64,000 nt of DNA. Source: Sinohyriopsis cumingii (taxonomy: Eukaryota > Mollusca > Bivalvia > Unionida > Unionidae). The DNA lies in contig CM068826.1 in assembly GCA_028554795.2 (NCBI GenBank), positions 100,151,846 through 100,215,845 of the forward strand, given 5' to 3'. A program made the translations under genes and the position numbers. Of the stretch, positions 1-63,581 are shown piece by piece. Below the pieces are notes generated by a model. That model had not been told where the DNA came from. It searched no databases and worked only from the letters and a program-made list of their open reading frames with translations. The stretch's first letter is position 1; each line of letters starts with the position of its first letter.

Positions 1-2
1 CT

Positions 3-2566
3 ATCTTCAGTCATTGCCCTCACTGCAGCAAGATTCCTGGAGGACGTGAAAAAATCTTTCGGGGACCAAACACGTTAGCCGATTTTGCCTAATGGGTCTT
101 AGACCCCATCGACAAGACGTGGAGCCAAGGGGACATCGAACGTTACGGAGATTGTCATCGTCATGCCACGGTGATGGCTCACAATTTCTCCGGATACGAT
201 GGACAGTTTCTTTTGAGGTACTATACGGAACATGGCACCGAACGTCCTAAAGTGATTTTGAACGGAGCCAAAATCATTTTCATGCAAGTGGGACAAGTAC
301 AGTTTAAAGATTCGATGAGTTACTTGGCCATGCCTTTGAGCCGAATGCCTAAAACGTTTGGAATGACAGAAATGGCTAAAGGGTACTTTCCACACTTTTT
401 CAATACGGAAGCCAATCAACATGCTGTTCTACCCCATTTGCCTGAGGCTCACTATTACGACCCCGACAACATGCGTACCGAACAACGAGAAGCTTTCTAC
501 GCTTGGTACCAAGCTCACGCCTCGGACCCTTTCGACTTTCAGGAAGAAATGTTAAAGTATTGTCGTTCCGACGTGGACATTTTACGGCGTTGCTGTGGAA
601 AATTTCGAGAACTGTTCATGGAACACGGAGGGGTCGATCCTTTGAAAGAAGCTTGCACCATTGCCAAAGCGTGTTCCTTAGTGTACCGGCAACGATTCAT
701 GCCTGAAAACACCGTGGCTGTCATCAGTCCTCAAACGACCCACTATGTCAAGCGTCAATACTCGGTCAAAGCCCTACGTTGGTTACATTACTTGTGCGAC
801 AAGGAAGACAAATGGATTCAGCATGCCCGCAACGGAGGAGGCGAAAAGACCATCGGAACGTATTCGGTAGATGGCTGGGACTTAGAAAACCCCAAGATCG
901 TGTACGAGTTTAACGGTTGCTTATTTCACGGATGTCCCGTCTGTTACCCTGACCGTGGCACTAAAAATCAGTTTTTGCAACGAACCATGGAAGACTTGTA
1001 CCAGGACACTTGTCAGCGACGCCTAAAGTTAGAACAGCAAGGATACCAAGTGGTGGAAATGTGGGAACACGAGTACGATCACCGTTTGAAAACCGATCCC
1101 GAGTTTAAACGCCTCGTGGAAAGTTACCAGTTCATGGACCCGCTGAACCCGAGGGATAGTTTGTACGGAGGAAGGACCAATGCCACCTGTTTGCTGTACC
1201 AAGCCGACGAAGAGAAAGGAGAAGAAATCAAATACTTGGACGTGTGTTCGCTGTATCTCTACGTGTGCAAATATTGTCGCTTTCCTGTAGGGCACCCGCA
1301 ATTGTTCACGGAACACATCGACCTGAAAAACATTCGACAATACGAAGGCTTGATCAAGTGTAAAGTTTTGCCTCCCACGAACCTATACCATCCCGTCTTA
1401 CCTCACCATTGTCAAGGCAAACTGATGTTTCCCTTGTGCCGTACTTGTGCTGAAACGTGCAACCAGGACCAACCTTGCCATCACAGCCAGGAAGAACGTG
1501 CCTTGACGGGAACCTGGGTCAGCGTGGAATTGTTCAAAGCTCTGGACATGGGATACCAACTGTTAGAAGTGTACGAAATTTGCCACTTTCCCAAGACACA
1601 ACAGTACCACAAGGGTGACCCTACTCAGAAAGGCATTTTCGCTGACTACGTGGATGCCTTTTTGAAACTGAAACAAGAAGCCAGCGGCTATCCTTCCTGG
1701 TGTCACACTCCCGAAGACCAAATACAATTCAAAGAGAAATACTACGCACAAGAAGGCATCTCTTTAGACCACATCGAAAAAAACGAAGGCAGGCGATCGT
1801 TTGCCAAAGTGATGTTAAATTGCTTGTGGGGTAAAATGGCACAACGACCGTGTTTACCCAAGACGGAATATTTGACAGAACCTTCCCGCTACTTCCAGAT
1901 GATTCACGACAAAACCAAATACATGAAACACGTGGACGTCGTTCGAGAGAATTTGATCTTGGTCAATTACGACGAAGATCTGGACTTTGTACAAGACGAC
2001 CCTTTTGGAAATGTCATCATTGCGGCTTACGTGACAGCTCATGCTCGCTTAAAATTGTACGAAGCTTTAGAACTGTTAGAAGAAGGCGTCCTGTACTTTG
2101 ACACGGACAGTTGCATTTACATCCATCACCCGATTCAACAGCACCCTGACATCGAAGGAGACCGTTTAGGAGCCTGGACAGACGAGCATCCCAACGACAA
2201 GATTCTAAGTTTCGTCAGTGGTGGTCCCAAAAATTACGGCTACGAATACCGGGACAAACAAGGAGAAGTGCACACGACGTGCAAAGTGAAAGGACTGACT
2301 CTGAATCATCGTACCAGTCGAGTGGTCAACTTTGGGGTATTGAAAGAAGCCTTGCAATGGGAGAGGATGGAAACTTTAAAGTGACCACCTATCAACCGAA
2401 CAAGATTGTACGTTTACCCACTCACCACATCGTCAGTCGACCCTTGGAAAAAGTCTATCAAATTGTATACCAGAAGCGAGTGCGACTTCCCAATCACTTC
2501 ACCTTACCGTACGGTCACGTTGGTATTGGTCTGTATATGAAAAGGAACCCTAGGCAAGATCGATAG
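3..2566 (+). pseudogene. Polinton/adintovirus protein-primed DNA polymerase B, disrupted, 5' end off window
   Basis: Family-B DNA polymerase that would replicate the element from a terminal protein primer. The longest intact frame is 171-2384. Visible motifs, numbered from 171: ExoII-type AHNFSGYDG (3-11), ExoIII-type YCRSDVD (~130), the Polinton-typical insert YEFNGCLFHGCPVC, LYGGRTNA, motif A YLDVCSLY (D357; the usual following Pro is Leu), motif B KVMLNCLWGK (K546), motif C YFDTDS (642-647), and the PKNYGY region. Homologous coding continues upstream of 171 to the window edge but is crossed by an in-frame TAA at 90-92. The conserved C-terminus (KRV..PNHFTLPYGH) lies in another frame after about 2360 and ends at 2566, so there is also a one-base-type frameshift near 2355-2375. 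The catalytic motifs are intact, so decay looks recent. Family assignment is firm; the disruptions could in principle be assembly errors. Confidence 0.92.
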
Positions 2567-2633
2567 TTCATTGTTCATTGAAGTAACTTACCATGTCGTT
2601 GACGAAGAAGAAACCAGATTGGTTAGGAGTCAA

Positions 2634-2840
2634 ATGTTGGACATCACCGAGACCAGTGTTTTGAGGCTTGGACACAAGAGGTGGCCCAGTATGCACGAGA
2701 GTTATTCAAGGAAAAAAGTTACTTTTCAACCTGAGTTAGTGACGGTGCCAGAAGAACCCGTCACCCAGGAAAGGACTGTCGTGGACAGGCCTGAAAGACC
2801 CTTTCGGGAGGACACTTGTGTGACCTTACCCCTACTATAG
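2634..2840 (+). CDS. small hypothetical ORF after PolB (68 aa)
   Basis: An ORF of 68 codons from an ATG at 2634, between PolB and the poly(A) signal at 2985. The product is charged (RKKVTFQPELVTVPEEP, RPERPF). The open frame extends upstream to 2571 without another ATG. I recognise no family. It may be a real small Polinton gene, a remnant, or chance; its position on the coding strand of a compact element is the main support. Confidence 0.25.
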   Translation: MLDITETSVLRLGHKRWPSMHESYSRKKVTFQPELVTVPEEPVTQERTVVDRPERPFREDTCVTLPLL

Positions 2841-2984
2841 AACTGGTTAGAACTTTACCCAAAACATGTTGTACAGACACTTGTGTTTATTCCACGTTCA
2901 TGGTTATCATGTGCCTTTTATTCTTGTACTTAAGCCTTTGGCTTTTATGCATTTTTGTCTTTCGTATTCATGTTTGAAACATTC

Positions 2985-3013
2985 AATAAACGTGTTCTGA
3001 AAAAGTATATAAA
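2985..3013 (+). promoter_or_regulatory. poly(A) signal (AATAAA) followed by TATA box of the ATPase gene
   Basis: AATAAA at 2985-2990 would end the polymerase-side transcript. TATATAAA at 3006-3013 lies 48 nt upstream of the ATPase ATG at 3061, a normal spacing for RNA polymerase II initiation near 3036. Terminator and promoter are only 15 bp apart, as in compact DNA-virus genomes. Confidence 0.6.
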
Positions 3014-3060
3014 CTCTTGTCTTGTTTGTTTTTCGTGTCACAAGTGACATTTCTCACACC

Positions 3061-3804
3061 ATGGCTACCTCTGCTGTCTCTGCTCCCTCTTCCTCTACTG
3101 TCAAAGTCATTGACGAACACTTAGATCGTGCCAGTTGGGAGGCTTTGTATCTTCGCCATCCCTTTAACATGCTCATTGCTGGACCTAGCGGTTCAGGCAA
3201 AACCGAATTCGTCAAACGTTTGATCGAACATAAACATCATTTGATCGATCGACCCCCTCAACGAATCGTGTGGTGTTACAAAGAGTGGCAATCGGCGTAC
3301 AGCCTCTTGCGAGAAAGTCAAGGCGATTCCATCGTGTTTGTGGAAGGCATTCCTAAAGAAAACGACGGCATCGTCTCTGACTCCCGTCTAACCCATTTGG
3401 TCATTTTCGACGACATGTTAGGAGAAGACGAAGAAGAAATTAAACTGTGGTTCACGCGCAACGGGCATCACCGTAATGCCAGTGTCGTTTACATCACCCA
3501 AAATTTGTTTCAACAAAGTAAAGCCCATCGCACCATCAGTCTCAATGTGCATTACGTGGTCTTGTTTAAAAGCCCTCGAGATAAATCGCAAGTGCAAGTC
3601 TTAGCCAAACAGTTAGGAACGCCTTGGCTGACTCAGGCGTACGACGATGCCACTAAAACTCCACACGCCTATTTACTCGTCGATTTGAAACCTACGACTC
3701 CCGAGGATTTGCGATTTCGTACCCACTTGTTTCACCACTGGTGCCAAGACGGAGGGCCCGTCCTGTACACGTCTCCGTCCTCGACTTCATTTCACTCCAC
3801 ATAA
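3061..3804 (+). CDS. Polinton A32/FtsK-HerA-type genome packaging ATPase (247 aa)
   Basis: P-loop ATPase of the A32-like packaging family, which in Polintons is thought to drive DNA into the capsid. Walker A is GPSGSGKT (41-48), Walker B is LVIFDD (113-118), and the polar strand/sensor segment SVVYITQNLF is at 141-150. Length is normal for Polinton ATPases (about 250 aa). The open frame begins earlier at 3022 with a non-ATG codon; I chose ATG 3061 because it is the first ATG with a good Kozak context (CACACCATGG) and sits 48 nt after a TATA box. No break is visible. The next gene starts 55 nt downstream of the stop with its own TATA box. Confidence 0.93.
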   Translation: MATSAVSAPSSSTVKVIDEHLDRASWEALYLRHPFNMLIAGPSGSGKTEFVKRLIEHKHHLIDRPPQRIVWCYKEWQSAYSLLRESQGDSIVFVEGIPKENDGIVSDSRLTHLVIFDDMLGEDEEEIKLWFTRNGHHRNASVVYITQNLFQQSKAHRTISLNVHYVVLFKSPRDKSQVQVLAKQLGTPWLTQAYDDATKTPHAYLLVDLKPTTPEDLRFRTHLFHHWCQDGGPVLYTSPSSTSFHST

Positions 3805-3811
3805 AAAAATC

Positions 3812-3818
3812 TATAAAA
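3812..3818 (+). promoter_or_regulatory. TATA box of the 306-aa basic protein gene
   Basis: TATAAAA just after the ATPase stop codon (3802-3804) and 42 nt before the ATG at 3860. Initiation near 3842 would give a leader of about 20 nt. Confidence 0.6.
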
Positions 3819-3859
3819 ACCTCAGACCCTTTTTCGTCTGTCTCACTCTCAGTGCGAAC

Positions 3860-4780
3860 ATGACGTCCCTTCAGTCGCATCTTCCCGTCAAATTGATTCG
3901 TGCCTTGTATGGCATCAGTCGAGAAAAAGATCCACAAACACGAGCTCGTGTCTTAGAAGCTAGTCTCAAAGAAGTCTTACGATGGTTCACGGTGACGGCA
4001 CGTCAATTACTCCAAGGAATCATTCAGATTCCTCATCAAACCAAACGCTTTTTCGATCCAAACAAAGTCGCTTTGGTCCAACTGGCCGATCCCCGCATCG
4101 ACACTCAAACCAAAAAACAAATCATTTTGAAACCTGGAGGGAGCGGTACTCTAGGAGGGGTCATCATTCGCTCACTCTTAAGATGGGATCCAAATGCCCC
4201 CAAAGTTATCCCCAAGACAAAAGTCCAACGAAGCCCCAAGAAGAAAAAGACCAGGTCCCCAAGGACAACTTCTCCAGTGGCAGGACCCTCCTCTGACCAG
4301 ACACCACCACCACCCCGGAAAAAGAAAAGAAGCCCCCAGAAAAAGAAAAGTCCACAGAAAACTAGTCGCAAGAGAGGCACTTCGGCCAGGACGCAACCTT
4401 ACACTCGCAAACCACGACCTGCCACGGCGGTGACTGCGTCTCCGGCAGCTTCACGTTTGTCCACTTCTCCGTTAATGACACCCAGAACTGAAGAGTACTT
4501 GGAGACGTTGATCACACCAAGAACTTCTCCGTTGATGACCCCCAAAAGAACTTCCCCAGTGGCAGGAGTTTCCAATTTAGTGGCAGTGGCTGCTGCTCAC
4601 AAAGTACCTTCTCCCAAAATCAAAGTTCAAGAAAGATCGGGCATGTTACAAAGTTTACTGGATTTGTCCAAGCAAGAACTGGTTCGATTTAGTCCGTTAC
4701 GTACCCCTGCACGACGTGTCATGCCTGTCCTCAAACTGATACGACGTAAAGACAATCAGTGGCGACGCGTTCCAGTATAA
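3860..4780 (+). CDS. Polinton basic core-like protein with SPKK-rich tail (306 aa)
   Basis: Likely DNA-binding virion core or packaging protein; function is inferred from composition. Residues 1-107 form a conserved-looking domain ending in a Gly-rich segment (LKPGGSGTLGGVIIRSLL). From about 120 the protein is disordered, Lys/Arg/Pro rich, with histone H1-like (S/T)P-K/R motifs such as RSPKKKK and RSPQKKK, and repeated RTSPLMTP-like blocks, giving many proline-directed phosphosite candidates. The N-terminal domain aligns with the product of the next gene (4840-5226), so the two appear to be tandem paralogues, this one with a long basic extension. The stop codon overlaps the TATA box of that next gene. 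ATG 3860 is the first in frame and follows a TATA box at the right distance. No enzyme motif is seen. Confidence 0.75.
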   Translation: MTSLQSHLPVKLIRALYGISREKDPQTRARVLEASLKEVLRWFTVTARQLLQGIIQIPHQTKRFFDPNKVALVQLADPRIDTQTKKQIILKPGGSGTLGGVIIRSLLRWDPNAPKVIPKTKVQRSPKKKKTRSPRTTSPVAGPSSDQTPPPPRKKKRSPQKKKSPQKTSRKRGTSARTQPYTRKPRPATAVTASPAASRLSTSPLMTPRTEEYLETLITPRTSPLMTPKRTSPVAGVSNLVAVAAAHKVPSPKIKVQERSGMLQSLLDLSKQELVRFSPLRTPARRVMPVLKLIRRKDNQWRRVPV

Positions 4781-4787
4781 AAAAGGC
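4776..4787 (+). promoter_or_regulatory. TATA box overlapping the upstream stop codon
   Basis: TATAAAAAAGGCC at 4776-4788 includes the TAA stop (4778-4780) of the 306-aa gene and lies 64 nt before ATG 4840. A near-identical ATAAAAAGGCCT block recurs at 5223-5234 over the next gene's stop, suggesting a repeated core-promoter module. Confidence 0.55.
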
Positions 4788-4839
4788 CTGTGACCAAGTC
4801 GGGTATCAGTGTTTTTTTGGTGCTCCTGAAGACTCAAAG

Positions 4840-5226
4840 ATGTCACCCTCCAGAAAACCCCAAGGAAAGAAAAGGAAAGGACTGCCACCACGTTTAGCCA
4901 AACATGGGGACATGTTATCTGTCCTGTCCAAAGCTTCTCCACCCCTACGAAAAAAACTCATTCAAACAGCCTCCAAAGAGGTCATCGATACCGTGTGCGA
5001 ATGTTGTTTGAACGTTTTGAAAGGCACGATCCCTTTGTCCAAACACCAGAAACAATGCTTAGGCAAACATCGTCACGTTCTTCGCCAAATGGTTCAAAAG
5101 AAAATTCCCATTCGTCAAAACAAGAAGATGTTAGTGCAACGTGGAGGTATTTTACCTCTCTTGTTAGGCCCCATACTGAAAGGAGTCTTGGGAACCATGT
5201 TGGGAGGACTGGTGGGAGCAAGATAA
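4840..5226 (+). CDS. conserved small basic Polinton protein (128 aa)
   Basis: A short basic protein of a type recurrent in metazoan Polintons (recognised from family memory; function not established). Residues 1-20 are a basic head (RKPQGKKRKG). Residues 24-100 are helical with Cys pairs (CECC at 53-56). The end is a Gly/Leu-rich hydrophobic tail (RGGILPLLLGP, then MLGGLVGAR), reminiscent of adenovirus pVI/pX-like capsid cement peptides; MLGG fits the adenovirus protease site form [MIL]xGG, but this is only a short motif match. The start was chosen at ATG 4840 rather than the open-frame edge at 4759, because 4840 follows the TATA box at 4776. Its core aligns with the N-terminal domain of the preceding gene product. 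Confidence 0.75.
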   Translation: MSPSRKPQGKKRKGLPPRLAKHGDMLSVLSKASPPLRKKLIQTASKEVIDTVCECCLNVLKGTIPLSKHQKQCLGKHRHVLRQMVQKKIPIRQNKKMLVQRGGILPLLLGPILKGVLGTMLGGLVGAR

Positions 5227-5234
5227 AAAGGCCT
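5222..5234 (+). promoter_or_regulatory. TATA-like GATAAAAAGGCCT over the upstream stop codon
   Basis: GATAAAAAGGCCT covers the TAA stop at 5224-5226 and lies about 45 nt before ATG 5275. It shares ATAAAAA(A)GGCCT with the module at 4777-4789. The first base is G instead of T, so it is a weaker TATA match. Confidence 0.4.
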
Positions 5235-5274
5235 AGGAAGTTCCAAGATCTCAGAATCGACCCCTGACAACCCC

Positions 5275-5901
5275 ATGGAAGGACGAAAACTAGCTTTAGT
5301 GCCTTACAAACGATGGATGGAATACCATCGGTGGCAAGAACAACACACCCCGCATTTACCTCCCTATCCCCATTTGAGCGAGATGTCCCAGTTACAACAC
5401 GAATTGCAGTCCTTAATGGATCGCCAAGATTTGTCCGAAACAGAAAAATCGCAAAAGTACGCTCAACTCTTGCAACGACTGCAACTCTTTCACCAGAAAG
5501 CTTTAGACGAAACAGCTCTACCCACTCTGAAAGATTTTAAGACCTTGATGAAAAGTCCAGCACCATCACCAGTACCAGTACCAGTACCACCAGTACCCGT
5601 GACCAAGACAGAAAAAGGAGAAGAAGAGGAAGGGTTTCAAACTCCACCAGAAAAAGTACGCAAGTTAACAACACCACCTACCTCCAGAATTGGATGGATT
5701 AAAAAGATGATGGCCACCCCTTCTTCATCACAAGAGAAAAAGAAAGTGAAGACAGAAGTGAAACAAGAACCGATATCCCCCGCTCAGACATCCTTCTCCT
5801 CTTCGACACCTATTGCTGGCCGCACACGCAAAGCATTGCAATCCAAGAAAATACCCCAAGAGAAAAAGAGTAGCATCCTCCAAGAGTGGGTGTCTTATTA
5901 A
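5275..5901 (+). CDS. conserved Polinton Pro-rich protein of unknown function (208 aa)
   Basis: I recognise the overall type from metazoan Polintons: a short N-terminal LALVPYKRW-like motif, a helical middle (residues 35-90, L-S-E-T-E-K-x-x-K-Y-A-Q-L-L), then a low-complexity linker and a C-terminal IGWIKKMM segment. The linker has a PVPVPVPPVPV run (99-109) and an acidic patch (EKGEEEEG). Two overlapping SUMO-consensus sites, VKTE (158-161) and VKQE (162-165), lie in a Lys-rich stretch that could also be a nuclear localisation signal. No enzyme motif is visible. The integrase ATG follows 21 nt after the stop with no obvious TATA box, so the two may share a transcript. Confidence 0.7.
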   Translation: MEGRKLALVPYKRWMEYHRWQEQHTPHLPPYPHLSEMSQLQHELQSLMDRQDLSETEKSQKYAQLLQRLQLFHQKALDETALPTLKDFKTLMKSPAPSPVPVPVPPVPVTKTEKGEEEEGFQTPPEKVRKLTTPPTSRIGWIKKMMATPSSSQEKKKVKTEVKQEPISPAQTSFSSSTPIAGRTRKALQSKKIPQEKKSSILQEWVSY

Positions 5902-5921
5902 CACACCAACCAACACAAAAA

Positions 5922-7031
5922 ATGGAAAAAGTCTTAGCCAGCATTTACTACGATCCCTCCCATCCTGCAGGTTACGCAGGAGTTCAAAAATTGTATCGTG
6001 CTCCCAAAACGCGACTGAAAAGTCTCCGTTTACCTCAAGTGCAACGATGGTTACAAGAACAAGCTACCTACACTTTACACAAACCCATTCGACGCAAGTT
6101 TGCCAGAAGTCGCACCCGAGTGGAAGGCATCGATCATCAATGGCAAGCCGATTTAGCCGATGTCTCTCATTTGGCCAGCTACAATCGTGGCTACAAATAT
6201 TTGTTCTGTGTCATCGACGTCTTTTCCAAATTTGCCTGGGTCGTGCCCTTGACTTCCAAATCGAGCAGCGAGTTAGTGCGAGCCCTGCAACGGGTGTTGA
6301 AACAAAGCGGTCGTCACCCTCTTCGATGGCAAACGGACAAAGGCACCGAATTTATGAACCAAGCTTTCCAAAAAGAATTAAAGAAACGTGACATTCATTT
6401 TTTTACCACCGAGAATCCCGAAACCAAAGCCAGCATCGTGGGACGTTTTCAACGCACTTTGAAAGAACGCATGTGGAAATATTTTACGCATCACCACACT
6501 CTGAAGTACATCGACATCTTACCGCACCTGGTGCAAGCGTACAACCAATCTTACCATCGAAGCATCGGACGTGCCCCGCAAGACGTGACTCCCGAGAACG
6601 AAGTGTTGGTGTTTGAGCGCCTGTTTGGTACGTCCCCGACGAGGGCTGTCCCCGAGAAAAGTGGAATGTTGGCCGTAGGAGATTGGGTGCGCATTGGCAA
6701 AACCAAACGCACTTTCGACAAAGGTTACTTACCTAACTGGACGACCGAATTGTTTCGCGTCACTGGACGAGTGCATGGCCGTCATCCTGCCATCTATAAA
6801 TTGGAAGACATGAACGGAGAAGTGCTCAAAGGAACGTTTTATTTGCCCGAGTTACAACGTGTCACCAAAAAAGAAGACGACGTGTACGACATCGAAAGCA
6901 TTCTCGAACGCAGAACCCGTAAAGTGGGCAAACGACGTGTCAAAGAAGTCAAAGTACGTTGGAAAGGATATCCACCCAGTTTCGATTCTTGGATCGACGC
7001 TTCGCAAGTCATCGACTATAAAAAGAAGTGA
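5922..7031 (+). CDS. Polinton retrovirus-like integrase with chromodomain; catalytic Glu position is Gly (369 aa)
   Basis: Integrase for insertion of the element DNA. The N-terminal segment (1-65, IYYDPSHPAGYAGVQKLYRA) is typical of Polintons. The rve core has WQADL (D77) and WQTDKGTEF (D139). At the position of the third acidic residue the sequence reads SIVGRFQRTLK with Gly174, codon GGA at 6441-6443, where family members have Glu. This would abolish strand transfer if the sequence is correct. An SH3-like C-terminal domain (~248-312) precedes a chromodomain (321-367, YDIESILERR...VRWKGYPPSFDSWI), which in related elements may steer insertion to methylated chromatin. ATG 5922 was chosen over the open-frame edge at 5886 as the first ATG. 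The rest of the frame is intact. Confidence 0.93.
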   Translation: MEKVLASIYYDPSHPAGYAGVQKLYRAPKTRLKSLRLPQVQRWLQEQATYTLHKPIRRKFARSRTRVEGIDHQWQADLADVSHLASYNRGYKYLFCVIDVFSKFAWVVPLTSKSSSELVRALQRVLKQSGRHPLRWQTDKGTEFMNQAFQKELKKRDIHFFTTENPETKASIVGRFQRTLKERMWKYFTHHHTLKYIDILPHLVQAYNQSYHRSIGRAPQDVTPENEVLVFERLFGTSPTRAVPEKSGMLAVGDWVRIGKTKRTFDKGYLPNWTTELFRVTGRVHGRHPAIYKLEDMNGEVLKGTFYLPELQRVTKKEDDVYDIESILERRTRKVGKRRVKEVKVRWKGYPPSFDSWIDASQVIDYKKK

Positions 7032-7036
7032 CCATC

Positions 7037-7450
7037 ATGCCTTTTCACACAGACGCAGCTACGTCGACCACTCCTCCTTCACCCAGTTCTTCTGTGCAAG
7101 ATTTACAAAAAGAACCCTTGTGGGTGTGGTGTGGAGAACGTGTGCCTAAAACGCAAATCGTCTTTTTCTGCCAAATCTTCGTGGTGTATTGTGTCATCGG
7201 GGCAGCCATCGCCAATTTGAGTTTGCAACAAGGAGACAAACAATTGTGGACCATTTTATTGAGCAGTTGCATCGGTTACCTGCTTCCTAATCCCTTCCTG
7301 AAATTCACCTCGAACGGGAACCACGGGAACCTTGTGTCCAGTGCCAGTGCCAGTCACCACTCCAACCACAACCAGAACCCCATTTTGGGCGGAGACACGC
7401 CTCTGACGTCCACTAACCCCTCGGACAGCCACAGAACTCTGGAATTATGA
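7037..7450 (+). CDS. Polinton small membrane protein with two TM segments (137 aa)
   Basis: Residues 1-35 are Ser/Thr/Pro-rich. TM1 is about 41-62 (IVFFCQIFVVYCVIGAAIANL) and TM2 about 70-85 (WTILLSSCIGYLLPNP), followed by an Asn/Ser/His-rich tail. The IVFFCQ...NLS...LLSS..GYLLPNP pattern recurs in metazoan Polintons; its role (virion membrane, assembly or lysis) is unknown. The ATG lies 5 nt after the integrase stop. Its stop TGA (7448-7450) overlaps the next gene's ATG (7447-7449) as ATGA, so reinitiation or a shared transcript is possible. TATAAAAAG at 7017-7025 is too close to this ATG to be its own TATA box. Confidence 0.75.
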   Translation: MPFHTDAATSTTPPSPSSSVQDLQKEPLWVWCGERVPKTQIVFFCQIFVVYCVIGAAIANLSLQQGDKQLWTILLSSCIGYLLPNPFLKFTSNGNHGNLVSSASASHHSNHNQNPILGGDTPLTSTNPSDSHRTLEL

Positions 7451-8370
7451 GTCACCAAAACCAATTTTACTTAACCTTACCCAGTGACAGTTCCATGGAG
7501 GTGTTTCCCAAGAACACGTTGTGCTGTTACACGGCCAAATTACCTCAAGCCATCCCCTTAGATCACGAAGCCCATTGGGAAGTGGCTTTAGTAGAAATGA
7601 TTCACCCGACCCAAGTCCTCAATGTCCTTCCCAATCAAAAGTTTTTTGATGTGGAAGTTCATGACGAACAATTGCAACAGTGGATGGATAGCAATGTCAA
7701 ATATGACAAGAAAACCCGTACACAAAAGTACACCACCTATCACTTGTTCATTTCCCCAGGCTATTATTTTAGTGGTCAACATTTTGTCAGCACCATAGCC
7801 TCCAGGTTTAATGCCGTGTTTCTGAAAGCTTTGGAGCATGTTAACAAAAGTGTCACCATGGAGTACCACAAAACAGCTCGTCGCTTCTTGATGAAATTTG
7901 AACGGAGTAAAATCCTGTCCATTTTATTTTGTCCTGAATTGTATGACATGTTGGGCGGAGACATGAACCTGAGAATGAGCATGATGAAGAAAAGCGAATT
8001 ACCCATCGTTTACGACAACGAGTCTTTTAGCAAGTTATTTCGTGCCCCGGTAGAACTGAACCAAGGACTGAATTTGATGTTTGTGTACTCCGATGTGGTG
8101 GAGTATAACGTGGTGGGACACACCTCCGTACCGTTACTGCGTGTCATTCCTTTCAAAGTGGATTCTGCCACGAACACTGACGAGGAAGGTGGAAACACTT
8201 ACCACGTCCACCGCGAATTTGTACATCCTCACTATTTGCCTGTCAGTAAGTCGTATTTGGACACGGTCAACATTACTATAAAAGGAGATTTGGGACAAAA
8301 TATTCCATTCACCAAAGGAAAAGTCACGGTGAAACTCCATTTTCGAAAACGGTTTTCTCACGATTCGTAA
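7447..8370 (+). CDS. penton-like minor capsid protein candidate (307 aa)
   Basis: The N-terminus FYLTLPSDSSMEVFPKNTL followed by a Thr/Ala-Lys-Leu-Pro strand and HWEVALVEMIHP is a well-recurring signature of metazoan Polintons. I assign it to the single-jelly-roll minor capsid (PX/penton) from gene order and length. Beta-rich segments run through the protein and the C-terminus GKVTVKLHFRKRF is a typical last strand. It lies between the two-TM protein and the pX-like protein, upstream of the major capsid gene. No break is visible. A TATA box (8277-8285) near its 3' end probably serves the next gene. The family match is good; the exact structural role is inference. Confidence 0.75.
   Translation: MSHQNQFYLTLPSDSSMEVFPKNTLCCYTAKLPQAIPLDHEAHWEVALVEMIHPTQVLNVLPNQKFFDVEVHDEQLQQWMDSNVKYDKKTRTQKYTTYHLFISPGYYFSGQHFVSTIASRFNAVFLKALEHVNKSVTMEYHKTARRFLMKFERSKILSILFCPELYDMLGGDMNLRMSMMKKSELPIVYDNESFSKLFRAPVELNQGLNLMFVYSDVVEYNVVGHTSVPLLRVIPFKVDSATNTDEEGGNTYHVHREFVHPHYLPVSKSYLDTVNITIKGDLGQNIPFTKGKVTVKLHFRKRFSHDS
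8277..8285 (+). promoter_or_regulatory. intragenic TATA box upstream of the pX-like gene
   Basis: TATAAAAGG, a near-ideal TATA box, lies inside the 3' end of the penton-like gene, 97 nt before ATG 8374. Initiation near 8307 would give a 5' leader of about 65 nt. Confidence 0.4.
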
Positions 8371-8373
8371 GTC

Positions 8374-8790
8374 ATGTATCCAGTGTACCGAGGGGTTGCT
8401 CGACAGCGAGGACACGGATTAGGAGATATGTTAAAATCGGCCTTTCGTTCGGTGGCCCCGGTGTTGAAACCGATGGTGACACGCGGATTGCACGCCTTGA
8501 AAGATGCGGCACTGACGCAAGGCAAAGAATTTCTCCAAAATGTCATCATCGACAAACAAAACCCTAAAGAAGCCTTCATGAGGGCAGGCAAAAATGTCTT
8601 GCTGCAAACGGGCAAAGACATTTTGGGTCACCGAGAAACACCTATAAATGCCCTGCATGCTACCGAGTCAGGCATTCAGCAAGGACAAGGCAGAAAGAGA
8701 CGACGAAGAAAACACCCTTTCACCAGACTTCAAGCGAGAAAGGTCAAGAAAAGAAGAACCGTTCGAGACTTAGACGTTTTCGATTATTGA
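8374..8790 (+). CDS. adenovirus pX/pVI-like basic virion protein (138 aa)
   Basis: The N-terminus YRGVARQRGHGLGDMLKSAF (5-24) matches the recurrent GxGLG hydrophobic head of small Polinton virion proteins likened to adenovirus pX/pVI. Residues 25-85 are amphipathic helices. The tail is strongly basic (RKRRRRKH at 107-114, KVKKRR at 123-128), fitting DNA condensation in the capsid. It starts 3 nt after the penton-like stop and ends 16 nt before the capsid gene. A possible TATA box for the capsid gene (8643) is inside it. A small protein of similar pattern precedes the second capsid gene at 63.1 kb. Confidence 0.72.
   Translation: MYPVYRGVARQRGHGLGDMLKSAFRSVAPVLKPMVTRGLHALKDAALTQGKEFLQNVIIDKQNPKEAFMRAGKNVLLQTGKDILGHRETPINALHATESGIQQGQGRKRRRRKHPFTRLQARKVKKRRTVRDLDVFDY
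8643..8649 (+). promoter_or_regulatory. possible TATA box for the major capsid gene
   Basis: TATAAAT inside the pX-like gene, 164 nt before the capsid ATG at 8807. It could start a separate capsid mRNA near 8673; alternatively it is a chance coding match. Confidence 0.25.
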
Positions 8791-8806
8791 GAAAAGAGAC
8801 AAAAAA

Positions 8807-10120
8807 ATGATGCACCGAGAATCTTGCGCTTGTTCCAAGACGGAACTGGATCTGTTTGCCATGCCCCCCACGATGATGACGATGCAAGAATCCCAGTGGG
8901 TGGAATTTCACCCCGTCTCCTCATTGACCGATTCCGCTCCCATCGAGTTTGAAATCAAAGGACAGCCCGAAGATTACATCGATCTGAATAGCAGTTACTT
9001 GTTCCTGAAAGTCAAAATTCTAGATAAGACTGGAGGTGCTATAGACGATGAAGCAGTAGCTCCCGTCAACAATTTCATGCATTCCTTGTTCAGTGGAGTG
9101 GACTTGTACTTGAATAACAAACTGGTCAGCAGCAGCATGGATACTTACCCTTATCGTGTCTACCTGGAAAATCTCTTGACGTACGGAATAGATGCCAAGA
9201 ACACTCATCTCAATGCCTGTGTGGTATGGGAAGCTGACGAACCTACCAAGTTTGAAATATTGGAAACTGATGAAAAGAAAGACAACAATGATGGATTTGT
9301 AGAACGAAGAAAGAGAATCACGGGAGCCGACACAAGTTTAGAACTGATGGATCGTTTGCATTTGGACATGTGGTTGCAAGAAAAGTATTTGCTGAACGGG
9401 GTGGATGTCCGCCTGAGACTGAATCGTAGCAGTGCCGCTTTCCATTTGATGGCTGATAGTGACGGTTACAAAACCAAAATCCTAGAAGCCAGACTCTACG
9501 TACGCCGTGTGGAAGTGTTACCTAAAGTGGGAAACGACATCAGTCAGACGTTGAGCAGAACGACTGCCAAGTATCCCATACGACGCGTGGAAGTGAAAAC
9601 CTTCACCATTCCCAAGGGACAGCGATCCATGATCGAAGATCATCTGTTCCAAGGACAGTTACCCAAACGTTTGATCGTTGGTATCGTCGAGAATACAGCC
9701 TTCAACGGAGCTGCCGAAAAAAATCCTTTCTACTTTCAACACTTTGGCGTGTCCAAAATCGAAGTCAGTCGCGATGGCAAGACCTTGTGTACCCGACCTT
9801 TCGAACCTGACTTTACCAAGAAGAATTACTTGAGATCGTACTTGTCCCTGTACGAAGCCACCGGACAGTTAGGAACCAATACCAGTCGCGGTATTACGTA
9901 CGAGGATTATGCAGGAGGCTACGCTTTGTGGGCTTTCGATTTCACTCCAGACCAAGGCAGCGACGAGGGACATTTCCACCCTATAAAATCCGGCCAGATT
10001 CGTGTGGAAATTCAGTTTAAAGACCGAGACCCTGATGAAACGGTGAACGTCATCCTGTATGCAGAATTCGATAATACCATAGAAATCAACAGTTTGAGAG
10101 AAGTCATCCTAGATTACTAG
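8807..10120 (+). CDS. Polinton major capsid protein, double jelly-roll type (437 aa)
   Basis: Corresponds to the Polinton PY/hexon family, known in metazoan annotations as F54H12.2-like. The start has a strand pattern IEFEIKGQPEDYIDLNSSYL (46-65), followed by VNNFMHSLFSGVDLYLN (~86-103), both signatures of the family. The remainder is beta-rich and ends in VNVILYAEFDNTIEINS. Length matches the family (about 430-480 aa). No stop or frameshift is visible, although the element's integrase and polymerase are damaged. Two ATG codons stand together (8807, 8810); I use the first. The gene is followed by a small open frame (27 codons at 10127) of doubtful status and by a poly(A) signal at 10287. Confidence 0.88.
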   Translation: MMHRESCACSKTELDLFAMPPTMMTMQESQWVEFHPVSSLTDSAPIEFEIKGQPEDYIDLNSSYLFLKVKILDKTGGAIDDEAVAPVNNFMHSLFSGVDLYLNNKLVSSSMDTYPYRVYLENLLTYGIDAKNTHLNACVVWEADEPTKFEILETDEKKDNNDGFVERRKRITGADTSLELMDRLHLDMWLQEKYLLNGVDVRLRLNRSSAAFHLMADSDGYKTKILEARLYVRRVEVLPKVGNDISQTLSRTTAKYPIRRVEVKTFTIPKGQRSMIEDHLFQGQLPKRLIVGIVENTAFNGAAEKNPFYFQHFGVSKIEVSRDGKTLCTRPFEPDFTKKNYLRSYLSLYEATGQLGTNTSRGITYEDYAGGYALWAFDFTPDQGSDEGHFHPIKSGQIRVEIQFKDRDPDETVNVILYAEFDNTIEINSLREVILDY

Positions 10121-10419
10121 AAACCATGGAAGACTGTTATCCCTCTTTACCTAGTGGAGAAAATTTAAAGATGGAATGTGATGAGACTGGAAAAAATGTT
10201 GTGTTTTGAAAAAAATTGTTTGATGTTATGATGTTGGATTATTGTTAAAAATGTTAGAGTTGTTGTTTAGTGTTAAGTGATTTTTGAATAAAAAATGTTG
10301 TGTTTTGAAAAAAATGCCTTTGTCTTTTGTTTAGCTATAAGAATGTTGGATTGATGCTCTTTCATTTCTTACTATCCCTCTCATGACACTCACTAAACGT
10401 TGCGACTCAAAAACCGTGT
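10121..10419 (+). terminator. 3' region of the capsid transcript with poly(A) signal
   Basis: AATAAA at 10287-10292 is the first canonical poly(A) signal after the late gene block, so 7.0-10.1 kb may end here. The stretch is A/T-rich with a partial internal duplication (GTTGTGTTTTGAAAAAAAT appears twice). It contains only a 27-codon ORF from ATG 10127 that I do not recognise. Confidence 0.5.
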
Positions 10420-10458
10420 GGGGGATGTTTTCCTTCACGTCCGCGCTTTGACTTTAAG
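10420..10458 (+). promoter_or_regulatory. shared 30-bp promoter block, copy 1
   Basis: Bases 10420-10449 (GGGGGATGTTTTCC, then TTCACGTCCGCGCTTT) are identical to 11273-11302. Here they are followed by ACTTTAAGA, a weak TATA match. The ATG of the first accessory gene is 62 nt after the block. The core CACGTCCGCGC looks like a factor-binding site. Confidence 0.6.
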
Positions 10459-10511
10459 AACCGGGTTGTTTCCAGTCTAACCATCCATTGTCGACTCATC
10501 CTCCTAAGAAG

Positions 10512-10871
10512 ATGTGCTCCAAACTAGCTAAACTCAACGAAGCCTACGTGAATTTGCATAGGGTCAGACACAGTCTGATACCGAAGCCAGAAGAAATAGA
10601 GAATGTGAGAATGTTAAAAATCACTGAAGACCTGATAGAAGAGCTCTTCAGAGAAGAAATGAACAGGGAGAAAGAAGAATGGACAGAGAAGTACAGACTT
10701 CAGAGACAGCAGCAACAGCAGCAACAACAGCAGCAGCAGCAGCAACCTGAACCTGACAGAGGCTTTGTCGATTGCCGTATCGACACCAAAGAGTTCTTCT
10801 TTTCTTTCCGAAGAAGCAGACCTATCGCCAGAAAGTCTATCCTCAGAGGACATCGCATTCTTAGAAACTAA
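10512..10871 (+). CDS. accessory gene A, poly-Gln coiled-coil protein with histone-type 3' end (119 aa)
   Basis: Function unknown. Residues 1-70 are predicted helical and charged (KLAKLNEAYVNLHRVRHSL), followed by about 13 Gln encoded by mixed CAG/CAA at roughly 10708-10745, then an Arg-rich tail (FRRSRPIARKSILRGHR). Its N-terminus aligns with the product at 11364 (KL-K-L-x-E-x-x-V-x-L pattern), so they are paralogues. The open frame begins at 10488 without an ATG; I use ATG 10512. It has the shared 30-bp promoter block and a perfect histone-type stem-loop 32 nt after the stop, with no AATAAA nearby. It is intronless and adjacent to the Polinton capsid gene; whether it belongs to the element or to a host insertion is not settled. 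Confidence 0.6.
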   Translation: MCSKLAKLNEAYVNLHRVRHSLIPKPEEIENVRMLKITEDLIEELFREEMNREKEEWTEKYRLQRQQQQQQQQQQQQQPEPDRGFVDCRIDTKEFFFSFRRSRPIARKSILRGHRILRN

Positions 10872-10903
10872 AAAAAGAATGCCATAGCAAACAAAAAAAA
10901 AAC

Positions 10904-10942
10904 AGCCCTTTTCAGGGCTACCCCAATACTCTAGAAAAGAAA
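10904..10942 (+). terminator. histone-type 3' stem-loop and downstream element, copy 1
   Basis: AGCCCTTTTCAGGGCT at 10904-10919 forms a 6-bp stem with a TTTC loop, exactly the replication-dependent histone consensus. The 3' flank is ACCCCA (consensus ACCCA) and the 5' flank is A-rich with AACA. About 12 nt downstream is AGAAAAGAAATAA, resembling the purine-rich histone downstream element that pairs with U7 snRNA. The stem starts 33 nt after the stop, the usual histone spacing. Confidence 0.85.
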
Positions 10943-11272
10943 TAACGATCGATTTGTCAATGTGTGTAGGTAGAGTAGTGTGAAAATAAACACTCTTTTA
11001 TAAAAAATGTGAGGGTATGTGTTTGTGTGTTAGTAAGTGCTTAAGTAAGTTGGTATGAATAGTAGATTAAAATCATGTTTTTTTGGTGTTTGAGGTGTAT
11101 ATTTGGAGTTAGATTGGATTGCTTTGCGTATGTGGATAGTCTATTGAAGTGATTTATAAAAAATTTTAAAATAGTGATGGGTAGCATAAAAAAGTGAGTG
11201 AGTGTTTCTTTTAGGCCCGCGCGTTGTTGTTTTTGGTCATGATGTAGGTAACATCAATTTTATGTTTTTTTA
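10943..11272. other. intergenic spacer between accessory genes A and B
   Basis: AT-rich spacer with no convincing gene. Its first ~100 bp (to about 11035, including GTGTAGGTAGAGTAGTGTGA and GTGAGGGTATGTGTTTGTGT) are repeated after accessory gene B at 11815-11910, where the TTTGTG part has expanded into a minisatellite. The duplication unit therefore included the 3' flank. Confidence 0.6.
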
Positions 11273-11312
11273 GGGGGATGTTTTCCTTCACGTCCGCGCT
11301 TTCACTATAAAT
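11273..11312 (+). promoter_or_regulatory. shared 30-bp promoter block, copy 2, with TATA box
   Basis: Bases 11273-11302 are identical to 10420-10449. They are followed by CACTATAAATTG, a good TATA box (11306-11312) 52 nt before the ATG at 11364. A TSS near 11336 fits, and CAGTCTA in the leader is also found in copy 1. Confidence 0.65.
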
Positions 11313-11363
11313 TGAAACTCGCTGGGCAGTCTAGCTACCCTTGTTGATTGATCAACACCAAAA

Positions 11364-11750
11364 ATGAACACGAGACTGTCTAAACTGTTGGAACTTCATG
11401 TGCATCTGGAATATGCCAGGCGCCTGTTGAATGAACTGGCCGCGGAAGCCATTGTGGAGGAGGGAAGGATAAGAGAGGAGGAGGAAAGAAGAAAAAAAGA
11501 AGAGGAGGAGAGAAGATATAAAGAAGAAGAAGAAGAGGAAAGAAGATACAAAGAGGAGGAGAGAAGAAACAAAGAAGAGGAGGAGGAGAAGGAAAAGAAG
11601 AGAAGAAGAATAAATTTGAGAATCCCAGAGAGCGAAAATTGGGATTCTGAAGCGACATATCCTGCCTCTGCTCTCTCCCCCAAAAGAGTAAAAAGTAACT
11701 GGGGGATAAGATGTGTATGTGGCGCCAGGCCTGGAAGGTGCCACCATTAA
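11364..11750 (+). CDS. accessory gene B, E/R/K single-helix protein with histone-type 3' end (128 aa)
   Basis: Function unknown. The N-terminus (MNTRLSKLLELHVHLEYARRLL, given here as a pattern of helical heptads) aligns with gene A. Residues ~32-88 are almost purely E, R and K (EEERRKKEEEERRYKEEE), the composition of a stable single alpha-helix. After it come LRIPESENWDSEA and a Ser/Pro/Lys tail with a C-x-C...C near the end. It shares the promoter block with gene A and has a perfect histone-type stem-loop 28 nt after the stop. The position of its E/R/K run corresponds to the poly-Gln of gene A, so both paralogues expanded different triplets at the same place. Confidence 0.6.
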   Translation: MNTRLSKLLELHVHLEYARRLLNELAAEAIVEEGRIREEEERRKKEEEERRYKEEEEEERRYKEEERRNKEEEEEKEKKRRRINLRIPESENWDSEATYPASALSPKRVKSNWGIRCVCGARPGRCHH

Positions 11751-11778
11751 CCAGGTGTCCATGAAGTTCCAAAAAAAC

Positions 11779-11820
11779 AGCCCTTTTCAGGGCTACCCAA
11801 TACTCTAGAAAAGAAATAAC
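11779..11820 (+). terminator. histone-type 3' stem-loop and downstream element, copy 2
   Basis: AGCCCTTTTCAGGGCT at 11779-11794 is identical to copy 1, with 3' flank ACCCA (exact consensus) and TAGAAAAGAAATAAC starting about 12 nt downstream. The stem starts 29 nt after the stop of gene B. The next ~100 bp are similar to the flank of copy 1. Confidence 0.85.
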
Positions 11821-11894
11821 CATCAATTTGCTAATGTGTAGGTAGAGTAGTGTGAATATAAACACTAACTCTTTTTTTAAGATAGTGTGAGGGT

Positions 11895-12680
11895 ATGTGT
11901 TTGTGTGTTTGTGTTTGTGTGTTTGTGTTTGTACCCGCTCACGTACGATTGTGTGGATAGTAGATTATGGATTTGTTTATCGTTTCTTAGCGTACGTGTT
12001 TGTGTGTTTGTGTTTGTGTGTTTGTGTTTGTACCCGCTCACGTAAGATTGTGTGGATAGTAGATTATGGATTTGTTTATTGTTTCTTAGCGTATGTGTTT
12101 GTGTATTTGTGTTTGTGTGTTTGTGTTTGTGTGTTTGTGTTTGTACCCGCTCACGTACGATTGTGTGGATAGTAGATTATGGATTTGTTTATTGTTTCTT
12201 AGCGTATGTGTTTGTGTGTTTGTGTTTGTGTGTTTGTGTTTGTACCCGCTCACGTACGATTGTGTGGATAGTAGATTATGGATTTGTTTATTGTTTCTTA
12301 GCGTATGTGTTTGTGTGTTTGTGTTTGTGTTTGTACCCGCTCACGTACGATTGTGTGGATAGTAGATTATGGATTTGTTTATTGTTTCTTAGCGTATGTG
12401 TTTGTGTATTTGTGTTTGTGTGTTTGTGTTTGTACCCGCTCACGTACGATTGTGTGGATAGTAGATTATGGATTTGTTTATTGTTTCTTAGCGTATGCGT
12501 TTGTGTATTTGTGTTTGTGTGTTTGTGTTTGTGTGTTTGTGTTTGTGTGTTTGTGTTTGTACCCGCTCACGTACGATTGTGTGGATAGTAGATTATGGAT
12601 TTGTTTATTGTTTCTTAGCGTATGTGTTTGTGTATTTGTGTTTGTGTGTTTGTGTTTGTGTGTTTGTGTTTGTACCCGCT
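11895..12680. repeat. ~91-128 bp minisatellite with (TTTGTG)n segments
   Basis: Seven full copies and a partial eighth of a unit containing GTACCCGCTCACGTACGATT, GATAGTAGATTATGGATTTG and GTTTCTTAGCGTATG, separated by variable runs of TTTGTGTG. Unit starts are near 11929, 12029, 12142, 12241, 12332, 12431, 12559 and 12671. Length differences come from the TTTGTG runs. The open frames across it (Cys/Val/Leu-rich) are artefacts of the repeat. It lies between accessory genes B and C and appears to have grown from the duplicated flank of gene A. Confidence 0.9.
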
Positions 12681-12708
12681 CATTGAGTCATCCACCCTTG
12701 TGTCTTCC

Positions 12709-12906
12709 ATGATGTTTAGGACGGACATGCTCATGTATGTCAGGTCCAAGTGGACTGTTGTTGATAGGACAGATACTAGTCAATGGATGAGGAGAGTTTA
12801 CATAGAAAGACAAGGATGTCTCAAGAGGGTACTTGTGTATGGACCGGTAGTTAGAAGGAGTTTAAGAAGAAGAAGAAGAAGATGTGACAGATGCCATCTA
12901 TGTTAA
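12709..12906 (+). CDS. accessory gene C, small Arg-rich protein with histone-type 3' end (65 aa)
   Basis: An ORF from ATG 12709 (second ATG 12712) to 12906. The product is basic and ends in an RRSLRRRRRRC run with CxxC (CDRC). I do not recognise the family and it does not clearly align with genes A or B. Its main support is a histone-type stem-loop 24 nt after the stop, as for A and B. The open frame continues upstream into the minisatellite, so the true start is uncertain. Confidence 0.4.
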   Translation: MMFRTDMLMYVRSKWTVVDRTDTSQWMRRVYIERQGCLKRVLVYGPVVRRSLRRRRRRCDRCHLC

Positions 12907-12930
12907 TATTAATATTAACATAAACCCAAA

Positions 12931-12972
12931 GACCCTTTTCAGGGCCAGCCATATTTCTCGAAAAGAGATAGC
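12931..12972 (+). terminator. histone-type 3' stem-loop, copy 3 (one mismatch)
   Basis: GACCCTTTTCAGGGCC at 12931-12946 keeps the TTTC loop and five of six base pairs, with an A-C mismatch at the second pair from the base. The 5' flank ACCCAAA and 3' flank AGCCA resemble the histone consensus, and TCGAAAAGAGATAGCC follows about 12 nt downstream as in copies 1 and 2. It is preceded by a TTAATATTAATATTAA palindromic stretch. Confidence 0.65.
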
Positions 12973-12994
12973 CTTTCCATTGCCTACCCCTTTT

Positions 12995-13262
12995 CTAAAT
13001 TTAAATTTAAATTTAAATTTAAAAAAACTTTAAAAAAAAAAATAAAAAATCCCATATTCAATTCCCCTTGTCCCTAGACAAACCCAAACTCTATTCCCAT
13101 GTTAATTTCCCTTGTCCCTAGACAGACCCAAACTCTATGTTAAATTCCCATTGTCCCTAAAGTGGCCCAGCGTTTTTCTCCATGTTAAATTTCCATTGTC
13201 CCTAGAGTTGCCCAGGGGTGTTTTTAATGCTAAGTCCCATTGTCCCTATGGTGGCCCACTTA
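12995..13262. repeat. (AAATTT)n run and ~50-bp degenerate tandem repeat
   Basis: 12995-13048 is (TAAATT)n grading into A-rich DNA. 13057-13262 holds about five degenerate copies of a unit with TGTTAAATTCCCATTGTCCCT and GGCCCA. No gene is seen. It may mark the right edge of the Polinton-associated block, but I found no terminal inverted repeat. Confidence 0.7.
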
Positions 13263-13606
13263 ACTACTCGTGTATGTATGACTGACTGACTAAATGACAC
13301 TTTTACCTTTTCAGCAAAAATTACATCAAGTTAATCAAAACACTGATTGTATATGATACAAGATCATGAGAAACAACAATGAACCGAGAACATGTACAAG
13401 AGACATACTGCTCGAACTAACGCTTTTACAAGATGAAACATATTAATACATACAATCATATAATTATATCTTGGTAATTTGGAAACTAAATATTCCTTGG
13501 CATAATATGGCTCCAACATTTTTCACACATGTGTGTACTACATGTATGCATTGTTACATGATTAACAATAACAAGGACACTGAATTTTATGGGTTTTTTT
13601 ATTGTG

Positions 13607-63036: not shown

Positions 63037-63085
63037 TAATTAAATTTGCTAGCAAATTCAGTTAGATAAACAATAATTAAATAAA

Positions 63086-63544: not shown

Positions 63545-63581
63545 CGATAACATTTTAATTAGATCATCACAAATAATAATA

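Follow-up and report, generated by a model that had tools for sequence, protein, structure and literature searches.

Closest described systems

To our knowledge, histone-type mRNA ends are regarded as almost exclusive to histone genes, and we know of no earlier mobile element or virus that uses SLBP/U7 processing as a switch for a class of genes. The family described here, a virus-like DNA transposon with thousands of dispersed genomic copies, has the hallmarks of Polinton/Maverick elements (a family B polymerase, an integrase with rve and Chromo domains, an ATPase, long inverted repeats, AG...CT ends and a 6-bp target duplication), but adds to them a class of accessory genes under histone-type signals. 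These genes resemble the host's replication-dependent histone genes in their stem-loop, purine-rich downstream element (HDE), stop-to-stem distance and H2B/H1- and H4-type promoter motifs, and like them they are short and consist of a single ORF. However, their products are not histones, and their carrier is a dispersed mobile element.

Adomaviruses encode histone-like ‘Histoid’ proteins (PMC11071296) and so also borrow from the histone world, but in that account it is the protein that is histone-like, whereas in the Polinton it is the regulation. A 2025 paper counted six histone 3’UTR stem-loops in polinton-like virus (PLV) and virophage genomes, with cryptophyte elements yielding only tRNAs and group I introns (PMC12220804). 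The portion of that paper dealing with these hits gives a count only, with no HDE, promoter or gene context, and does not discuss them. This count qualifies the preliminary description of this DNA, which knew of no account of such signals for Polintons.

A Polinton with accessory genes

We analyzed a 64,000-nt stretch of DNA from Sinohyriopsis cumingii, referred to as the window. Its first 13.3 kb (1..13268, + strand) are the right-hand part of a 17.04-kb Polinton (G000:C3:100148077-100165113), the left 3.8 kb of which lie beyond the window in locus L029. The element has AG...CT termini, is flanked on both sides by the 6-bp duplication CGTGTA, and carries inverted repeats that are 99.3% identical over a 587-bp alignment, the right one (12683..13268, + strand) matching the left end at L029 2732-3317. 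Pfam searches identified a family B DNA polymerase, putatively of the protein-primed type (PF03175 DNA_pol_B_2, E 7.6e-41), a retroviral-type integrase (rve, E 2.5e-14; Chromo, E 1.3e-7) and a putative packaging ATPase (Pox_A32-type, E 1.2e-7). The putative capsid genes, labelled MCP and penton by gene order, had no Pfam match above cut-off, no PHROGs match in a comparison that covered six core genes, and no credible PDB profile match.

In this family, accessory genes A, B and C are placed at the right end, and D and E at the left. The window contains gene A (119 aa; 10512..10871), gene B (128 aa; 11364..11750) and a right-hand copy of the arginine-rich gene E (65 aa; 12709..12906), all on the + strand; the left-end copy of gene E encodes 78 aa and is transcribed divergently from gene D. 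Most of the right-hand gene E, along with its stem-loop and HDE, is held within the right terminal inverted repeat. These genes had been called Polinton-adjacent, which is wrong, as the element ends and inverted repeats place them inside the 17.04-kb element. The statement that none of them encodes a histone held: genes A and B have no known domain, Pfam matched none of genes A-E above cut-off (one representative each of A, B, D and E, two of C), and tblastn with H3 and H4 found no match in loci L001-L028.

Histone-type 3’ ends

Searched over the whole window at E<=1, the Rfam family Histone3 (RF00032) matched three places alone, all on the + strand: 10904..10919 after gene A (AGCCCT TTTC AGGGCT; 29.3 bits, E 2.7e-4), 11779..11794 after gene B (31.0 bits, E 6.4e-5) and 12931..12946 after gene E (25.3 bits, E 0.0081). 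When positions 10000-13500 were searched alone, the E-values were 1.5e-5, 3.5e-6 and 4.4e-4, with 46/46 positions matched each time. The Rfam gathering scan of the window was empty because all three scores fall below the gathering score of 34. The gaps from the stop codons are 32, 28 and 24 nt for A, B and E, in line with the 24–32 nt given earlier. As also described, the first two stems are perfect and a purine-rich element follows all three stem-loops; the third stem has one A.C mismatch, while its left-end twin has none and scores 35.6 bits. The HDEs lie on the + strand at 10930..10943 for gene A (TCTAGAAAAGAAAT, with the core CTAGAAAAGA), 11804..11817 for gene B (again TCTAGAAAAGAAAT) and 12956..12969 for gene E (TCTCGAAAAGAGAT). 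With two more stem-loops at its left end, the Polinton carries five of the histone type, where three had been reported. In all five gene classes of the family, the stem-loop is followed by an ACCCA-type stretch and an HDE resembling those of the host histone genes, an arrangement that diverged copies retain. The core genes of this copy have neither a histone-type ending nor a histone promoter motif.

The stem pattern by itself is weak evidence: with up to two mismatches it was found 3 times versus 1.33 expected, and three or more times in 12/100 shuffles. The combination of stem, flank and HDE is not weak. The exact string of stem-loop, ACCCA and HDE occurs 27,547 times genome-wide and the reversed pattern 0 times; the gene B stem-loop fits this string, and the first and third stem-loops of the window deviate from it in the flank. 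All 75 genomic Histone3 matches that were scored, out of 589,472 first-look candidates, lay above the gathering score, and a Polinton accessory gene precedes the match in every one of the 28 that we read.

Comparison with the host histone genes

The host histone genes form a tandem unit of 8.27–8.29 kb (one unit read) with H3, H4, H2B, H2A and H1, each of which ends in a histone-type stem-loop after a stop-to-stem gap of 27–38 nt. In the same RF00032 search, these stem-loops scored 35.0–39.4 bits and Polinton stem-loops from three loci 31.0–43.8 bits. Four of the five host genes (H3, H4, H2B and H1) have the same HDE core as genes A and B. The loop differs, being TTTC in 67/68 Polinton stem-loops, TTTT in host H3 and H4, and TTTA in host H2A. 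Aligned with the 3.1-kb Polinton tail, the host unit shared only the promoter motifs and the gene E stem-loop and HDE; with the left end it shared the stem-loops of D and E, and no likeness was found to the 9.9-kb Polinton core or 11.7 kb of flank.

The promoter match is a second likeness to histone genes, absent from the preliminary description. Genes A, B and C share a 24–26-bp motif with host H2B and H1. Before gene A it is found at 10422..10447 (GGGATGTTTTCCTTCACGTCCGCGCT), matching the host H1 promoter at 24/26 and host H2B at 23/24 positions. Gene B is preceded by an H4-type motif at 11205..11225, which agrees with the host H4 promoter at 20/21 positions, and then by a second motif of the H2B/H1 type at 11275..11300, followed by CTATAAATT (all on the + strand). 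With up to three mismatches, the H2B/H1-type motif has only these two matches in the 64 kb, before A and B, against 0.00 expected. No histone promoter motif was found for genes D and E in the comparison with the host unit. Genome-wide the motif has 31,228 copies, compared to 0 for the reversed control. We paired motifs with stem-loops in a sample of first listed places (100 motifs and 98 stem-loops, 56 of them A/B-type). Among these 56, as first listed on C1, 45 have a same-strand motif 300–800 nt upstream, in all cases at 422–515 nt, and 11 have none within 800 nt; an opposite-strand motif was present in 0/56, with 0.2 expected at random places.

Predicted use of the histone pathway

Given the host unit, the genome-wide counts and the promoter motif, SLBP/U7-type 3’ ends on genes of a virus-like transposon, as first proposed, are the best-supported reading of the sequence. 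We consider it very likely that the accessory genes are a class whose expression runs through the host pathway for replication-dependent histone genes. SLBP would bind the pre-mRNAs of genes A-E, and the U7 snRNP machinery would cleave them past the stem-loop. The resulting mRNAs would lack poly(A) and may build up during S phase, or wherever early embryos and germ cells make histone mRNA. The element could benefit by having its early or regulatory genes tied to the timing of host DNA replication. With the 3’ end found in five gene classes and the promoter in three, it is probably a whole regulated gene class that the host histone programme would govern, as genes of S phase or the cleavage-stage embryo that escape poly(A)-based control. 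The accessory genes thus form a natural collection of non-histone candidates for SLBP/U7 substrates, and they suggest a concrete hypothesis in which Polinton activity is timed to early embryos or to the replication of host DNA. RNA-seq libraries selected for poly(A) could overlook such genes.

Poly(A) signals near the stem-loops

Some histone genes have dual 3’ ends, at the stem-loop or at a downstream poly(A) site. The accessory genes might likewise end at the stem-loop when cells proliferate and in other settings extend to poly(A) sites further downstream, an option that we find conceivable though doubtful. An AATAAA does lie at 10985-10990, 65 nt beyond the gene A stem-loop, and AATAAA or ATTAAA occurs within 400 nt in 3/9 A, 1/14 B and 9/15 D copies. 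However, 6/9 A and 13/14 B copies have no such signal within that distance, and six of the nine D cases, as well as one A case, lie upstream of the stem-loop, those of D in an A-rich spacer. The proposed contrast with the capsid side, said to have poly(A) signals where the accessory genes have none, proved weak in view of the AATAAA behind gene A, and we set it aside because only one of nine MCP copies, the window's own, has AATAAA or ATTAAA within 400 nt.

Conservation among copies

We also considered that an ancestral Polinton took up histone flanks as an idle fragment, whose unused signals then spread by duplication and copy number. The signals do resemble those of the host. Genes A and B have 3’ ends of almost the same sequence, probably the result of duplication of the signals inside the element. 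Conservation makes idleness improbable. Among 49 gene-anchored copies, 35 stem-loops are perfect, 7 have one mismatch and 4 have two, with none found in 3; the stem-loop is thus kept within two mismatches in 46/49, although copies from the same locus or related by descent are not independent. This count excludes the 28 sites by which loci were chosen, where conservation is inflated because L001-L028 were picked by high Histone3 score. Pairwise identity among copies is 0.95–0.97 in the stem-loop and 0.92–0.98 in the HDE but 0.64–0.89 in the spacer between them; coding ends (0.77–0.94) and sequence further downstream (0.76–0.85) are fairly alike too. This sample, also used for the poly(A) signals, had 9 copies of gene A, 14 of gene B and 15 of the 19 of gene D; the D copies omitted were two chosen sites and two without a stem-loop.

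The position and strand of the stem-loop relative to the stop codon are constant across the five gene classes, which again argues against an idle fragment, as does selection on the genes themselves. Median dN/dS was 0.27 for gene A (6 intact copies), 0.23 for gene B (8 copies) and 0.11 for gene E (14 intact copies, the window copy lying outside the set), and medians across the tested genes ranged from 0.11 to 0.47. Input copies were 8/9 for A, 8/14 for B, 17/19 for D, 15/20 for E and 7/9 for MCP, with 6, 8, 13, 14 and 6 intact ORFs, respectively. Judged by these ratios, the accessory genes are under purifying selection.

Covariation of the stem, proposed earlier as a check, is seen at pair 1, which changes from G-C to A-U among copies, and is modest overall. 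Pair 1 is the only one changed on both sides within Polintons, pair 3 being so changed in host H1 alone, and the count of further pair types was reached in 474/500 shuffles, with rows that were self-chosen and copies that are related.

Convergence offers a still less credible account, in which the stem-loops are DNA or RNA elements that do something else, for instance as terminators or as signals for packaging. Some signal copies do lie within terminal inverted repeats, but the HDE, which belongs to the U7 pathway, has the host histone core and is conserved at a fixed distance from the stem-loop in an alignment of 22 Polinton stem-loops (hand-picked to be diverse, some of them mismatched) and 5 from the host, and the promoters of genes A-C match histone promoters as well. 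A few copies, such as L002, have lost the HDE. An origin of the stem-loops in an unrelated host histone fragment was rejected, as they lie within the Polinton.

Searches for U7 and for relatives

An Rfam search found no host U7 among 65 scored of 801,960 candidates. A U7-like pattern had 23 matches versus 41 for the reversed control, and the 16 of the 23 that we read showed no convincing 3’ hairpin. Scans of IMG/VR with MCP, the integrase and alignments of MCP and of gene D detected no relatives; of two stem-loop patterns, one had no match there and the other a single one. That match, contig L048, was taken as chance, having phage-like ORFs and no tblastn match to Polinton proteins.

GTDB contigs included four from metagenome bins with related proteins (three related, one remote), which we take as animal contamination. 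The histone-type ending is not a general Polinton trait, because neither these four contigs nor another element of this kind, at the edge of the window, had a Histone3 match at E<=0.5. Separately, contig L044 stops 1.3 kb past its MCP-like gene.

Histone-type stem-loops lie within the Polinton

The Rfam Histone3 model matched the three histone-type stem-loops named in the preliminary description (10904, gene A; 11779, gene B; 12931, gene E) over all 46 positions each. In the window it matched nothing else at E<=1. They scored 29.3, 31.0 and 25.3 bits, all below the gathering score of 34. Genome-wide, 75 Histone3 hits were scored, every one above that score and 69 at 42.6–45.6 bits. At the 28 of these that we read, a class C, D or E accessory gene of a Polinton precedes the stem-loop in every case, and tblastn found no H3 or H4 sequence at these loci.

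Reading 6.5 kb to the left of the window (L029) gave the left end of the Polinton. The full element is 17.04 kb (C3:100148077-100165113, the right 13.3 kb within the window), bounded by AG...CT ends and a duplicated 6-bp sequence, CGTGTA. Pfam recognised its PolB, chromodomain-bearing integrase and Pox_A32-type ATPase; other genes are labelled, by gene order, as putative capsid genes. All three stem-loops are inside the element rather than adjacent to it, as first thought; the reading that they belong to an unrelated host histone fragment was rejected on that ground. The inverted repeats (window 12683-13268 and L029 2732-3317) form a 587-bp alignment with 99.3% identity. The repeat holds the gene E stem-loop and most of gene E, so the third stem-loop of the window is the right-hand copy of one at the left end (L029 3069, minus strand, 3' of gene E); gene D is followed there by its own (L029 4130, plus strand). 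An ORF on the opposite strand (L029 4398-4868) converges on gene D and has, by eye, repeated CCHC zinc-knuckle-like motifs. A tandem array (window 11893-12673; period 99, about six copies, 11893-12532; period 127, 12397-12673) separates gene B from the right inverted repeat; in several other copies of the element a further gene, of class C, takes this place.

Comparison with host histone genes

Host histone genes form tandem units of 8.27-8.29 kb. The one unit read (L042) carries H3, H4, H2B, H2A and H1, each with a purine-rich element and a stem-loop, the latter 27-38 nt downstream of the stop codon; stem-loops and, in part, purine-rich elements of one bivalve's histone mRNAs are already published (PMC6210712). 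Host stem-loops scored 39.4 (H2A), 38.2 (H2B), 37.7 (H4), 35.9 (H3) and 35.0 bits (H1), and the Polinton stem-loops scored alongside, those listed for three loci, 31.0-43.8 bits. The histone downstream element (HDE) has the core CTAGAAAAGA in four of the host genes (H3, H4, H2B and H1) as well as in genes A and B of the window's Polinton. Host H2A has CCCGAAAAGG, and most Polinton copies of C, D and E carry CTNGAAAAGA or something near to it. A further stretch 3' of the HDE is shared by host H2A (TCAATTTTGCCA, L042 4223 onward) and Polinton genes (for example D, TCAATTTGCCA).

Conservation of the stem-loops

Taking genes, not stem-loops, as the starting point, we counted stem-loops behind 77 gene copies from 29 loci and the window, 28 of which are the sites by which loci were chosen. 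Among the remaining 49, the stem-loop is perfect in 35, has one mismatch in seven and two in four, and is absent from three. Among copies of A (9), B (14) and D (15), pairwise identity is 0.95-0.97 for the stem-loop and 0.92-0.98 for the HDE, against 0.64-0.89 between the two, 0.77-0.94 for coding ends, 0.69-0.86 for the post-stop spacer and 0.76-0.85 further downstream; since neighbouring sequence is also fairly alike, the contrast is clear, not large.

Covariation in the stem is modest. In 26 distinct stem-loops of our choosing, five from the host, 93.6% of cells pair; pair 1 changes from G-C to A-U in seven, and pair 3 from C-G to U-A in host H1 alone. The covariation score (0.158 vs 0.102 shuffled) was reached by 2 of 500 shuffles, but the count of further pair types was not above shuffled.

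Median dN/dS is 0.27 for A, 0.23 for B, 0.47 for D, 0.11 for E and 0.31 for MCP. On inspection by eye the products of A-D seem to be charged and helical, and E is arginine-rich. Most named matches overall are to molluscs, bivalves above all (Mercenaria, 52%, and oysters for the capsid-type protein; Mytilus and oysters for host H1), which makes a bivalve host likely. Large sequence sets (jgi, lgn, ena, ncbi) contain 20 relatives of gene D, and 11 aligned ones (alignment A3) share a WDxVDFLxSQEF block.

A histone-type promoter motif

Upstream of both gene A and gene B is GGGATGTTTTCCTTCACGTCCGCGCT, followed by CTATAAATT in gene B and in gene A by no more than CTTTAAG; the corresponding host motifs are GATGTTTTCCATCACGTCCGCGCT (H2B) and GGGATGTTTTCAATCACGTCCGCGCT (H1). 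A second, 21-bp motif of gene B matches the host H4 promoter at 20 of 21 positions. In eight right ends the motif is present 25 times, class C genes included, and always lies 3' of MCP and before the element's right end. In short-word blastn against the host histone unit, the 3.1-kb tail matched only by its promoter motifs and the gene E stem-loop/HDE, those of A and B not being returned at the threshold used; the left end returned the stem-loops of D and E, and neither the core genes (9.9 kb) nor the flank (11.7 kb) gave a match. Among the first listed places, in 6.7 Mb of C1, the motif precedes 45 of 56 A/B-type stem-loops on the same strand, at a distance of 422-515 nt, and none of the 56 at 300-800 nt on the opposite strand; 0.2 would be expected at random places. 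The sequence CGTCCGC resembles a HINFP site. In humans, HINFP is reported close to the start sites of H4 and H2B and at two H1 genes (PMC5283814). The motif was not found in the 219-bp divergent promoter stretch common to D and E (L029 3331-3549), where CCAAT-like boxes and two TATA-like ones are present.

Across the 2.905-Gb genome there are 31,228 occurrences of the promoter motif and 27,547 of a string of stem-loop, ACCCA and HDE; either one reversed occurs 0 times. By these counts the Polinton family is very abundant. Because 100 motifs fall in 43 clusters on the C1 stretch, scaling by proportion suggests, as a rough figure, some 13,000 right ends; were most copies full length, the family would make up several per cent of the genome.

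Proposed expression and distribution

Histone-type signals are part of the anatomy of Polinton genes A-E, which most likely use the host histone mRNA pathway. Genes A-C would be transcribed from histone-type promoters, and D and E from their common promoter stretch. Judging from sequence, SLBP would bind the stem-loop, U7 snRNP would pair with the HDE, and cleavage would yield mRNA lacking poly(A), produced and stable when histone mRNAs are. Against this reading, a host U7 snRNA was not found in the genome with the Rfam model (65 of 801,960 candidates scored) or a U7-like pattern. Also against it, some copies of A (3 of 9), B (1 of 14) and D (9 of 15) have AATAAA or ATTAAA within 400 nt, partly upstream of the stem-loop.

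Related proteins are encoded on four contigs of metagenome bins (titled tubeworm symbiont, mussel symbiont, Breoghania and Rickettsiaceae). These contigs gave no Histone3 match, though one ends 1.3 kb past its capsid-type gene, nor did the part read of a second element beginning at window 62002. Histone-type ends therefore look like a lineage trait. The second element is a different one, Polinton/adintovirus-like by the look of its ORFs (window 62002-64000 and L043, C3:100213847-100224345); one ORF had no Pfam match.

That such ends are undescribed for Polintons holds among the matches listed in a literature search partly aimed at histone genes, where no title or abstract start concerned histone-type ends in Polintons or viruses. 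It needs qualifying in that one section of PMC12220804, without comment there, puts the number of histone 3'UTR stem-loops in genomes of polinton-like viruses and virophages at six. Adomaviruses have histone-like proteins (PMC11071296), a different borrowing from that of the Polinton.
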